Shown here piece after piece: positions 2,923 to 6,856 of a stretch of 64,000 bases of DNA. This stretch comes from Mesoflavibacter sp. (GTDB lineage: Bacteria > Pseudomonadota > Alphaproteobacteria > UBA8366 > Aestuariispiraceae). Numbering within the stretch: the first letter of the stretch is position 1; each line of letters starts with the position of its first letter. Both the position numbers and the translations under genes were made by a program. Location: positions 4,804,148-4,868,147 of the forward strand of contig CP051228.1 in NCBI GenBank assembly GCA_017792345.1, in the 5' to 3' direction. The notes beneath the pieces are model-generated. The model saw only the letters and a program-made list of their open reading frames with translations, did no database searches and had not been told where the DNA came from.

Positions 2923-2956
2923 TTGACGTAGAGCCTGATATTGCAAATCATTCGCA
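2923..2956 (+). promoter_or_regulatory. promoter with overlapping Fur-type operator for the DUF2325 operon
   Basis: A -35-like TTGACG at 2923-2928 is followed after 17 bases by AATCAT at 2946-2951. A 7-1-7 palindrome TGCAAAT-C-ATTCGCA at 2942-2956 covers the -10 position (6 of 7 arm positions match). That is how Fur repressors usually sit. The ATG of the operon's first gene is 27 bases downstream. The palindrome is seen; the assignment to Fur (or a related Irr-type regulator) is inferred. Confidence 0.55.
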
Positions 2957-2982
2957 TTCTCAGAACATCTTATGAGGATGTC

Positions 2983-4224
2983 ATGTGCGAGAAATGTGAA
3001 CCGGCCGCCATTGGCGCCGGCCTGGAACGGCGGCGGCGCCTTTGGGAAATCGATTCGAACTGGCATTGCTCCATCGTGGGCACCTGCCTGACCTTGGGCG
3101 ATCTACGCCGCGTCGCGCGTAAGCTCGGCTACAAGCCCCCCGTCGATCCCTATTACGATGTCGACAGCTACCTGCACGGCTATTTCGTGAAGCTGTGCGG
3201 CAAGCCTACCATCGCGGCGAAAATGCTGGAAAAGGTGCTGAACCGGCGCCATGCTGGCGCAATCCGCAAGCTGCAGAAGGTGAAGACGGTCGGCGATCTT
3301 TGCGACGCCTGGACCGCAGCCTTCAGCATCGGCGACGTGCCCGGCCCCTATTGGGCCATGCTCAGCCATCCGCTGATCGACCTGCGCCTGGGCAGCAAGA
3401 TCTATAACGACGTCCACATGCTGTCGCATCTGGTCGGCGCATCGAACCGCGCGGACCTTGCCAATCTGCGCCGCCTGGAAAGCGACCTGGCCGGTGCGCA
3501 GGAACTGGCGGAGCAGACGCGGGCCCGGTCGGCCGCCAAGATCCGGGAAAAGGACGCGCGAATCGAAGAGCTGGAAGCGCAGGTCGCCAGCCTGTCCGGC
3601 CGCCTGGAATCCGCCCGTAAGGAAAGCAAGAAAGGGCCGCCCTGTGCCATTGACCGCGATCAATCCGGCGCGGTCGTTGCCCATTTGGAGACGCAACTTG
3701 CCCGTATGACGGAGCAGAACGAAATCCTGCAACGCGACAATGCGACCTTTCTTACACTGGTTCCGTCCCTGCGCGACGAAATCCAGGCGCTGGAGCGGGC
3801 ATTGGGCGATCCGGACGAGGCTGAGCCGGGTGAAGCGGGCTGCGACAACTTCCGGTGCGATCTGAAAGACCGCTGCCTTCTCTATGTCGGGGGAAGGACC
3901 CGCCATGTCGGGCAGATGCGGAATCTGGTGTCTGACTGGAACGGCATCCTTCTGCATCACGATGGCGGGTTGGAACAGTCGCTGGAAGAACTTTCCGGCG
4001 CGATCCTGAAGGCGGATGCGGTCTTCTTTCCGACCGATTGCGTCAGTCACAAGGCGATGTACCGCCTGAAATCCGTCTGCCAGCAGACAAAGAAGCCTTT
4101 CGTCCCGCTGCGCACCTCCAGCCTGTCCTGTTTCCTGGCCGGATTGGAGAAAACCCTGAAGGACGGCGGCGCTGCAACGTCCGCCCAAGAAACCCCGCCG
4201 GAAGAGACGAGGAACTACCTGTGA
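2983..4224 (+). CDS. DUF2325 domain protein with central coiled coil
   Basis: A 413-residue cytoplasmic protein. The start is ATG 2983, chosen for the GAGGA five bases upstream; the frame is open to 2941 (TTG), but that would place the coding sequence over the operator. N-terminal part: cysteine pairs MCEKC and HCSIVGTC, then a globular region (about residues 30-165). Middle: a long charged coiled coil (about 170-270, LESDLAGAQELAEQTR onward). C-terminus: CDNFRCDLKDRC leading into the DUF2325 domain (LLYVGGRTRHVGQMRNLV, ADAVFFPTDCVSHKAMY). DUF2325 has no settled function. The cysteine clusters could bind a metal or a Fe-S cluster. It is translationally coupled to the next gene (overlap TGTGA) and is probably iron-regulated. 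Confidence 0.8.
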   Translation: MCEKCEPAAIGAGLERRRRLWEIDSNWHCSIVGTCLTLGDLRRVARKLGYKPPVDPYYDVDSYLHGYFVKLCGKPTIAAKMLEKVLNRRHAGAIRKLQKVKTVGDLCDAWTAAFSIGDVPGPYWAMLSHPLIDLRLGSKIYNDVHMLSHLVGASNRADLANLRRLESDLAGAQELAEQTRARSAAKIREKDARIEELEAQVASLSGRLESARKESKKGPPCAIDRDQSGAVVAHLETQLARMTEQNEILQRDNATFLTLVPSLRDEIQALERALGDPDEAEPGEAGCDNFRCDLKDRCLLYVGGRTRHVGQMRNLVSDWNGILLHHDGGLEQSLEELSGAILKADAVFFPTDCVSHKAMYRLKSVCQQTKKPFVPLRTSSLSCFLAGLEKTLKDGGAATSAQETPPEETRNYL

Positions 4225-4757
4225 GCCACCTTGCCGACGAAGCCTATCTGAAAGAAAGTTTCCGCGCCCTGACCCATCCGGAGCAATTGGCCCTGTGGGC
4301 GATCCGCATGTGGGTGCGCGCCTACCGGACCGAGGACCGGGAAGCCGCGGAAGCCATCCGGCACGGTTTGATCCTCTCGGATGTACCTGAGGGGACGGAT
4401 GCGGCGCTGGACCGGTTCATGACGGTCCTTGCCGTCTCGACCCAGGTCTCCATCGACATCCGCTGCCCGAATTGCAAGAGCGTCAGCCCGGACGAGCACC
4501 GCCTGATGGGAGCCCTGGCGGCGATGCAGCAGACCGGCCGTCACGATCCGGCAATCCTGCCCATGGCGCCGGACCGGTATCTGTCGGTCTGGCTGCCCCC
4601 CGCCGCGATCCGATTGTCCCGCGCGCCTCTACAGGCCCTGGCCCATGCTTTCGATGAGGCCGAACTGCGCCTGCGTCCGCGAAGCTGGGTCTTGCAGTCG
4701 GCCGCTGTCGGCGAGGCCATCGAGGGGCGGAGCGCAACGGTCCACACGATCCATTGA
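4221..4757 (+). CDS. DUF2325-associated hypothetical protein with CPNC motif
   Basis: A 178-residue soluble protein. GTG 4221 overlaps the stop of the preceding DUF2325 gene, and GAGGA lies upstream, so the two are translated together. The N-terminal half is helical and aromatic-rich (ALWAIRMWVRAYRTEDREAAE). The centre carries IDIRCPNCKSVSPDEHRLMGALAAMQ, a CxxC motif that could bind a metal or act in redox chemistry, though a single CxxC is not a complete zinc site. The C-terminal half contains VWLPPAAIRL. I do not recognise a named family. Strict coupling implies it works with the DUF2325 protein, possibly by sharing a metal site. Ends 44 bases before the convergent PepSY gene. Confidence 0.75.
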   Translation: MSHLADEAYLKESFRALTHPEQLALWAIRMWVRAYRTEDREAAEAIRHGLILSDVPEGTDAALDRFMTVLAVSTQVSIDIRCPNCKSVSPDEHRLMGALAAMQQTGRHDPAILPMAPDRYLSVWLPPAAIRLSRAPLQALAHAFDEAELRLRPRSWVLQSAAVGEAIEGRSATVHTIH

Positions 4758-4801: not shown

Positions 4802-6214
4802 TCAGGACAGGGCCCGCTTCAGCGCCGGAAGGCGGCGCAGCACCAGAACGTCCAATGCGATGATGGACAGAAGTGCGATTCCGGCCATCGGGAAAGCCAG
4901 CGACACCGCCAATCCGACCAGTACCGCCCCCTGCCACAGTGGCATGTCGCGCGGCATGGGCGGCGCGGCGAGGCGCAGGGCGCGGCTGGGCCGGCGCTTC
5001 CACCACATGACGATCCCGCTGACGCACAGGAACACCACCGACAGGCAGAACACGGTGTTCAGCGCGACATTCCAGGCCCCCAGATCGCCCTCGTGGAAGG
5101 CAATCCCGACAGCCATGCCCTGGCCGTAGATCGAGTAATCGGCAAAGCCGACATCGGCCAGAACCTTGCCGGTATACCGGTCGAGATGCATCGTCCGGTC
5201 CGAGGTCGGATCCTCGCTGTCATTGCTCATCGAATCCCGCGACAGGGTCCAGACACCTTGATCGCCGCGCGGGAAGGCAAGCTGGAAACGGCCGTCGAAA
5301 CCGGTCTGGCGCGCAAAGGCGACGACACTGTCCAGCGACACCGCCTGCCCATCCGGAATGCCCGGGGCTCCGGCATCCGACCCGGAAACCGGCATCAGCG
5401 TCTGTTCCAGCGCCCAGGGAACTTCCTTGCGGCCGGCATGGTTCATCGACGCGTGGGTGTCGTCCGACAGCGGAACATTGTCCCATTTCTCCGCCGGGAA
5501 GGTGCTCCAGGCCTGAACGAATTTCTCGCCCCAGATCCCCGCCCAGGACAGACCGGAAATCAGGAAGACGACCAGGATCAGCGAGATCCAGACGCCGATG
5601 ACGGAATGCAGATTCTTCCACAGCGCCCGGCCCCGGGCCGAGAAACTGGGAATGAAGGCGCTCAGCGTCCCGCCATTGCGCGGCCACCACAGGTAAAGGC
5701 CGGTCGCGATCATGACGAGGGCCAGGGACGCGGCCGCTTCGATCGCGCGATCGCCGATTGTGCCGATCAGCAACGTGCCGTGAATGTCGTCGGCCAGATC
5801 ATAGAGGCCGCTGCGGCGCGGGAAACTGTCCAGCACCGTCGCGGTATAGGGATCGACGGCGACCATGATCGCATCCTCGCCCCGGTCGACCCGGAAGATC
5901 GCGGCCAGGTCTTCGGCGCGGGGGGCGATGTACTGACGCAGATCGCCGTCGATGGCCGCCCGCGCGGCCTCCGCCTGCTGCGACACCGGCAGCGGTGTCC
6001 CGGCGGCACTGGGGACTTCGACCCATTCGCCGTCGCGGCCCTGCAGGACGCTGGTCCACAGCATGATCATGCCGGTCGTGGCGAGTACCAGCAGAAAGGG
6101 GATGACATAAAGACCGGCATAGAAGTGCCAGCGCCAGGCGGCGCCATAGAATTTCACATTTGCGGAAGCACGCGCTTCCAGACCGGCATCGCCGGTTTGG
6201 TCGATGGAAACCAT
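4802..6214 (-). CDS. PepSY-associated TM protein (PiuB-like)
   Basis: A 470-residue inner-membrane protein of the PepSY_TM family, often encoded with TonB-dependent siderophore receptors and suggested to act in siderophore reduction or release of iron in the periplasm. Visible are TM1 (FYAGLYVIPFLLVLATTGMIML, about 33-54), a periplasmic PepSY-like part (LDSFPRRSGLYDLADDIHGTLLIG), further TM helices (ALVMIATGLYLWW; VWISLILVVFLISGLSW), a second PepSY-like region (MHLDRYTGKVLADVGFADY) and C-terminal helices (VFLCVSGIVMWWKRRPSRALR). The WWxRR after a helix and the HGTLLIG histidine are family hallmarks. AGAGGAAAG precedes ATG 6214. It is the second gene of a pair with the DUF2946 gene, 40 bases apart. 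No receptor gene is adjacent. Confidence 0.85.
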   Translation of the reverse strand: MVSIDQTGDAGLEARASANVKFYGAAWRWHFYAGLYVIPFLLVLATTGMIMLWTSVLQGRDGEWVEVPSAAGTPLPVSQQAEAARAAIDGDLRQYIAPRAEDLAAIFRVDRGEDAIMVAVDPYTATVLDSFPRRSGLYDLADDIHGTLLIGTIGDRAIEAAASLALVMIATGLYLWWPRNGGTLSAFIPSFSARGRALWKNLHSVIGVWISLILVVFLISGLSWAGIWGEKFVQAWSTFPAEKWDNVPLSDDTHASMNHAGRKEVPWALEQTLMPVSGSDAGAPGIPDGQAVSLDSVVAFARQTGFDGRFQLAFPRGDQGVWTLSRDSMSNDSEDPTSDRTMHLDRYTGKVLADVGFADYSIYGQGMAVGIAFHEGDLGAWNVALNTVFCLSVVFLCVSGIVMWWKRRPSRALRLAAPPMPRDMPLWQGAVLVGLAVSLAFPMAGIALLSIIALDVLVLRRLPALKRALS

Positions 6215-6254: not shown

Positions 6255-6665
6255 TCAGAGGGAAAGCGGCGGCGCCCGCGCCTCGGGCGTCTCGCGCAGA
6301 GACCGGGGCGCGGCATCTGTATCCCCGATGGGAAAGCACAATGCCGCCACCGGACGCGATTCGATGAATGCGATATCGTTCTGTTGCGGGACGGACAGCG
6401 ACTTGGCGGCCGCGCAGAGCGGGCAGACCGGCTGAAATCCCTGGCCATCTTCGTCGGCGTCGCCCGGCTGTTCCGCCGGGGCCTCTGCCGTCATTTCAGC
6501 CGATACGGTGATCTGTGCGAAACCGGTTCCGGTACAGATCCAGATCGTCCGGCCGGAATCGGACGTTCCGGCCATGGCATGGCCGACACCTGTGACGCTC
6601 GCGAGGCAATACAGCAGCGCGACGACGGCGTTCAGGAATGTCCTGCGGCGGAACATGTTTTTCAC
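6255..6665 (-). CDS. DUF2946-like secreted protein
   Basis: A protein of about 136 residues with a signal-like N-terminus (FLNAVVALLYCLASVTGVGHAMAG) and a short cysteine-bearing mature part: ICTGTGF, then FQPVCPLCAAA, then the C-terminal proline-rich tail. The CPLCAAA motif with the preceding IC is typical of the small DUF2946 (DUF2946-type) periplasmic proteins found next to PepSY-TM or copper/iron uptake genes. Start: GTG 6665 has GAGGG four bases upstream; ATG 6656 (MFRRRTF) is the alternative, with poor spacing. Upstream gene of the pair with the PepSY protein. A metal-binding role is inferred from cysteines and context only. Confidence 0.7.
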   Translation of the reverse strand: MKNMFRRRTFLNAVVALLYCLASVTGVGHAMAGTSDSGRTIWICTGTGFAQITVSAEMTAEAPAEQPGDADEDGQGFQPVCPLCAAAKSLSVPQQNDIAFIESRPVAALCFPIGDTDAAPRSLRETPEARAPPLSL

Positions 6666-6856
6666 CCGACCCTCAAATCCGCGATCCCGCCCGGGTCCGC
6701 GAACTTCCTCGCGCAAATGACACGCAAGGCCGAACCACGTCAAGCCGGTGGACGGTATCTGGGCCCATAGCCTGCCTTCTTAACCTTTGCTTAGGGGGTT
6801 CGCGCTATCGTCGCGATTGAGGGTGGGGAGCGACTGGAAGCGAAGGTTGCTCCGCC

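Follow-up and report, generated by a model that had tools for sequence, protein, structure and literature searches.

Results

A predicted Fur-controlled operon that couples a long DUF2325 protein to a small helical protein

The two genes located at positions 2983-4757 of the window (the whole 64,000-nucleotide stretch of DNA analyzed here) are predicted to form a Fur-repressed operon that is induced upon iron starvation and that aids in the movement or release of scarce iron, a reading to which we give a probability of roughly 0.7. The parts of this reading differ in strength. Fur-family iron control of the operon is very probable, and it is likely that the gene 1 and gene 2 products act together; a role in handling metal, rather than in sensing, signaling or oxidative protection, is speculative and only tentatively preferred. 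Specifically, when iron is plentiful, Fe2+-loaded Fur bound at 2942-2956 would cover the -10 element and block the promoter, and when iron is scarce the release of Fur would allow synthesis of a two-gene message from which gene 2 would be translated by coupling. Gene 1 would provide a cytosolic protein in which a helical domain with invariant His and Cys residues and a long coiled coil are combined with a Rossmann-like DUF2325 domain. Gene 2 would provide a small helical partner, and we infer that both proteins together would move or release scarce iron after its uptake. Their roles would be split: gene 2 would be specific for iron, and DUF2325, given that a sister clade is linked to the molybdenum repressor ModE, would be metal-neutral. 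No function has so far been assigned to DUF2325.

A putative Fur-type operator overlaps the gene 1 promoter

Upstream of gene 1 there is a sigma-70-type promoter on the + strand at 2923-2951, with the -35 sequence TTGACG at 2923-2928 separated by a 17-nt spacer from the -10-like sequence AATCAT at 2946-2951. A promoter scan picks up the same TTGACG/AATCAT pair independently. Overlapping the -10 is a Fur-type operator, TGCAAATCATTCGCA (2942-2956, + strand), a 7-1-7 palindrome (TGCAAAT-C-ATTCGCA) in which 6 of 7 arm positions pair and that ends 26 nt before the gene 1 ATG at 2983. These coordinates agree with the original prediction, which had placed a palindrome over the -10 of a TTGACG promoter upstream of a DUF2325 gene. 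A 7-1-7 Fur-type box at the promoter is a trait of Fur regulon members, and boxes of this type are also found before relatives of the gene. In the congener G003 the box is identical, as are the -35 and the promoter spacing, and together they form a conserved island in a region where much of the flanking DNA has diverged. By sequence, then, 2942-2956 is a putative Fur-type operator that is conserved together with both genes. The island upstream of window gene 1, inspected by eye, contains the Fur box; a ModE-type sequence (CGNTATAT-N8-ATATANCG) is absent from it.

The operator is rare, both locally and genome-wide. The window contains four strand-wise matches within two mismatches versus 0.41 expected, and scans of the whole genome (4,907,657 bases), which are pattern matching only, found a single exact copy of TGCRAATNATTYGCA, that of the DUF2325 operon, and four sites including this one when up to one mismatch was allowed, with the reversed-pattern control giving zero in both cases. 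The three additional sites are located upstream of a TonB-dependent receptor (with Plug and barrel domains), upstream of a small ORF coupled to a gene-2 paralogue, and at 1873-1887 in the window, before another small ORF. A looser Fur pattern, TGMDAATNATTHKCA, gave 15 genome sites with up to one mismatch versus one for the control, and its two exact sites belong to the DUF2325 operon and again to the gene-2 paralogue. Several further near-matches of the box lie inside genes. The genome also codes for a Fur protein (PF01475, E 2.9e-38, at 1688694).

The second Fur-like site in this region, TGCGACTGATTCGCA (1873-1887, + strand), is located 35 nt upstream of its small ORF and is probably a separate promoter. 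This ORF (1923-2183) codes for 86 amino acids with a hydrophobic start and is 73% identical in G003, where the homologue is preceded at -54 by a weaker box, TGCGACTCATTATTA, with two mismatches. The other small ORF is found at locus L077 (G000:C1:1583226-1583981), where a perfect Fur box lies upstream of a 54-amino acid Cys-rich ORF (MTQAPSSGCCAGCPKSDAPRGPTC...) that overlaps, or is coupled to, the gene-2 paralogue and that is 65% identical in G003.

Fur or ModE-type boxes upstream of relatives of gene 1

A single-sequence search of genome contigs for gene 1 relatives gave no matches, and an alignment of 11 orthologues used as query recovered 348 relatives in public genomes; 80 of these were retained, and 77 were analysable. 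Within 1200 nt upstream, and allowing one mismatch, 26 of 72 loci have a Fur box (0-1 with altered patterns) and 32 of 72 have a ModE-type box, CGNTATAT-N8-ATATANCG (0 with altered patterns), the ModE pattern having been applied after its half-sites had been spotted in the same sequences. When two mismatches are allowed for ModE, the 77 loci, which are not independent as they include 17 Methylobacterium-type rows, are labeled as 26 Fur, 42 ModE, five weak and four unassigned, and none of the 77 has both types of box. Of the four unassigned loci, two carry a ModE box upstream of the gene that comes before DUF2325 in the operon. In a quick tree of 82 proteins, the ModE group including those two loci forms one clade (SH-aLRT 99), a single change suffices to account for Fur versus ModE, and window gene 1 falls outside the ModE clade. 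Eleven loci have an AphA-like (PadR-type) regulator gene upstream of DUF2325, and there the Fur box is mostly located before the first gene of the operon.

Of 398 sampled proteobacterial genomes, 27 have DUF2325. Among 24 DUF2325 loci from across the phylum, a Fur box occurs within 600 nt at 12 (controls, 0) and a ModE-type box at four. One proteobacterial genome (G688) codes for three DUF2325 proteins, two of which are Fur-boxed and one of which has a perfect ModE box, and five loci that are related to each other (L178, L179, L181-L183) have neither. The original prediction could have failed had orthologues not kept the palindrome upstream; the box proved to be identical in G003, and before members of both gene families Fur boxes recur across Proteobacteria with near-zero controls. 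Note that a few records carry unexpected titles. L115, titled Anaerolineae, is identical over DUF2325 to L116 from Alphaproteobacteria, and L111, titled Mycobacterium sp. KBS0706, falls within Inquilinus on the tree; these are likely mis-binned or mislabelled.

Architecture and invariant residues of the long DUF2325 protein

Gene 1 (2983-4224, + strand) codes for a 413-amino acid protein that matches PF10087 over residues 298-390 (E 7.2e-21; 74.6 bits versus a gathering threshold of 33.6) and that looks cytosolic. Its predicted structure, modeled from 45 sequences with a pLDDT of 87, consists of a helical N-terminal domain (residues ~20-145; 3040-3417, + strand), a long coiled coil assigned from the secondary structure of the model (residues ~134-274; 3382-3804, + strand) and a four-stranded, parallel alpha/beta DUF2325 domain (residues 298-390; 3874-4152, + strand). 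In the 45-sequence alignment, residues H28, C29, G33, T34, C35, H65, W110, W124, H145 and H149 are invariant in the N-terminal domain. The same is true of H326, D327, G329, C353, S355 and H356, located in the conserved HHDGG and DCxSH stretches of the DUF2325 domain, and of C366. One ModE-type relative has Tyr in place of Cys353. The invariant residues are common to the Fur-type and ModE-type proteins of this alignment, which makes it improbable that the activity they conserve is tied to a single metal.

Structural comparison of the DUF2325 domain gave a best Z of 10.8 (96 residues, 2.7 A) and many folds at 8-9.6, with the best Foldseek E being 0.02. The modeled domain resembles receiver domains, PTS IIB, nucleoside deoxyribosyltransferases and other Rossmann-like folds, a resemblance that as modeled carries no functional information. 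Sequence searches of solved structures gave nothing beyond coiled-coil noise.

Gene 2 belongs to an unnamed family with Fur boxes

Gene 2 (4221-4757, + strand) starts with a GTG at 4221, giving a 4-nt overlap with the gene 1 stop codon (TGA), and its 178-amino acid product contains CPNC at residues 82-85 (4464-4475, + strand), both of which agree with the earlier description of a translationally coupled second gene with its own CPNC motif. No family was matched in Pfam or NCBIfam. The model is all-helical (pLDDT 80.5), with no Foldseek structural match at E <= 0.001 and a best VIA Z of 4.0. Likeness to AhpD, a helical protein with CxxC, was considered and dropped for its low score, the matches being weak.

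In G003 and in six other organisms (L094, L095, L097, L098, L099 and L101), DUF2325 is immediately followed by a relative of gene 2, and these DUF2325-linked copies are the closest relatives of gene 2. A profile search of 385 sampled alphaproteobacterial genomes detected the family in 93 of them, and the ModE-class DUF2325 loci yielded no gene-2 homologue. Fur boxes precede 29 of 44 gene-2 family loci, distributed over two sets (16/20 and 13/24 loci, within 500-600 nt upstream), with controls being 0 in both; three of the four loci of the first set that lack a close box have one further upstream in the locus. Some genomes have two gene-2 relatives side by side, arranged either in tandem or divergently. 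At four loci (L063, L064, L065 and L066) the gene-2 relatives are divergent from another unnamed family, which has CCPC or a motif close to it and resembles them in its N-terminal pattern, LTEAERFVVRSIRKWLFG.

The cysteine motifs are less constant than the boxes. The N-terminus of gene 1 is MCEKC, and this MCxxC is present in 12 of 26 Fur-class and in none of 42 ModE-class proteins. CPNC of gene 2 is kept in DUF2325-linked copies and lost in some paralogues, with CxxC being absent from 3 of 11 aligned family members, including the paralogue in the source genome. Cysteine clusters were on these counts ruled out as a common core, as CxxC motifs are too variable in both families to be the core of the system. 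Of the iron-controlled, cysteine-rich pair that had been proposed, the predicted iron control is supported, with Fur boxes over near-zero controls and iron genes as neighbors, and the cysteine motifs do not define the families.

Gene neighborhoods follow the type of box

The neighbors of Fur-class DUF2325 genes are Fur, an FbpA-like binding protein, DUF4856, imelysin and a di-haem oxidoreductase (DHOR), and those of ModE-class genes are ModA, ModB, ModC, Mop, MoeA and a protein with a ModE-type repressor domain, a family present in 13 ModE-class loci. When both the gene 1 and gene 2 families are considered, ferritin and peroxiredoxin are added to the Fur-class list, and gene-2 relatives located elsewhere sit among imelysin, ferritin, Fur, peroxiredoxin and DUF4856 genes. 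At L057 and L052, from two other genomes, a Fur-family gene lies directly after, or is convergent on, the DUF2325 gene.

Imelysin and DHOR are exported proteins that make up irpA-type iron operons. In some relatives the pair lies directly upstream of these genes, the order DUF2325 - gene 2 - imelysin - DHOR being found in L097, L098 and some Rhodospirillaceae, and gene-2 relatives are located inside such operons. The window differs in that no imelysin operon adjoins the pair, and the pair looks cytosolic. Downstream in the window, convergent on the - strand, are a gene for a PepSY-TM protein at 4802-6214 and one for a DUF2946 protein at 6255-6743. Both families often accompany iron or copper uptake.

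Discussion

The presence of two wirings, Fur or ModE, with one switch between them on the tree narrows the role of DUF2325 to metal scarcity. It is possible, though we would not put it above even odds, that the long DUF2325 protein is a general cytosolic metal-starvation machine that operates alike for iron and molybdenum, with nothing exchanged in evolution except its partners and its repressor, Fur in one case and ModE in the other, and with the gene-2 family giving iron specificity. These proteins offer a comparative design in which the same conserved residues serve under two metals. Gene 2 also brings a second unnamed family into the predicted Fur regulon.

Several described systems can be compared with the pair. 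C. jejuni cj1384c is iron-repressed, derepressed in a ∆fur strain and has a Fur motif (PMC4491227, PMC3815106), and its function has been called unknown (PMC9426514). Cj1384c has the DUF2325 domain and the Fur motif in common with gene 1, with iron repression having been measured for cj1384c alone. It differs in being a 104-amino acid short form that lacks the helical and coiled-coil regions, in being coded next to katA, in being also regulated by PerR (PMC9426514) and in having no reported gene-2 partner. Mo-boxes of the ModE regulon are described in Rhodobacter capsulatus (PMC6925177). The sister clade of gene 1 has ModE-type boxes among mod genes, whereas gene 1 of the window is Fur-boxed, lacks a ModE box and falls outside that clade. 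Within the literature searched, with most subscription journals outside its scope, DUF2325 is mentioned in four papers, and no link between it and molybdenum was seen. The alphaproteobacterial Fur regulon of Sphingobium SYK-6 (PMC7376174) is similar in having the box at the promoter and a TonB-dependent receptor as co-target, and the part of that report covered here names neither the gene-1 nor the gene-2 family.

The strongest competitor to metal handling, itself rather unlikely, is a sensor or signaling module in which the binding of a nucleotide or another small ligand by DUF2325 is relayed, through the helical and coiled-coil regions, to a transporter or regulator during metal starvation. 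The likeness of the domain to receiver domains and the other folds listed above would suit such a role, as would a long coiled coil for signal transfer, the placement of one protein under two metal repressors, which fits a metal-neutral signal, and the AphA-like regulator gene upstream of DUF2325 in many operons. However, such folds are common and no guide to function, no receiver-type phosphorylation site was identified, and signaling leaves the invariant His and Cys residues without explanation. Less likely again is that the pair are Cys- and His-rich proteins that protect the cell once repression by Fur-family proteins is lifted under iron or peroxide stress. An oxidative-stress role does fit cj1384c, because PerR also controls this gene, which is located by katA and which, at 352-fold under violet-blue light, was the most strongly induced gene of that experiment (PMC9426514). 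Peroxiredoxin genes also adjoin gene-2 relatives. Set against this, cj1384c is under Fur control as well, and the ModE-controlled clade has no evident peroxide link, its neighbors being molybdate uptake genes.

Regarding the repressor, it is improbable that the operator serves another member of the Fur family (Irr, PerR or a Mur-like protein) in place of Fur. There are four Fur-family genes in the genome and boxes of this family are alike, but a like box precedes the TonB-dependent receptor and the gene-2 paralogue, Fur-family genes adjoin relatives of the pair, and the Irr motif of rhizobia differs from this box, which counts against Irr. That the palindrome is a chance occurrence without a role is the least credible reading by far. 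Palindromes of the bare 7-1-7 type, paired at 6 of 7 arm positions, are common, numbering 151 in the window, so the weight rests not on the palindrome per se but on its Fur-like letters, its position and its conservation. Chance was rejected on the rarity of the box in the genome, the box counts at DUF2325 loci and the conservation in G003; the box also recurs before members of the gene 1 and gene 2 families, where the controls are near zero.
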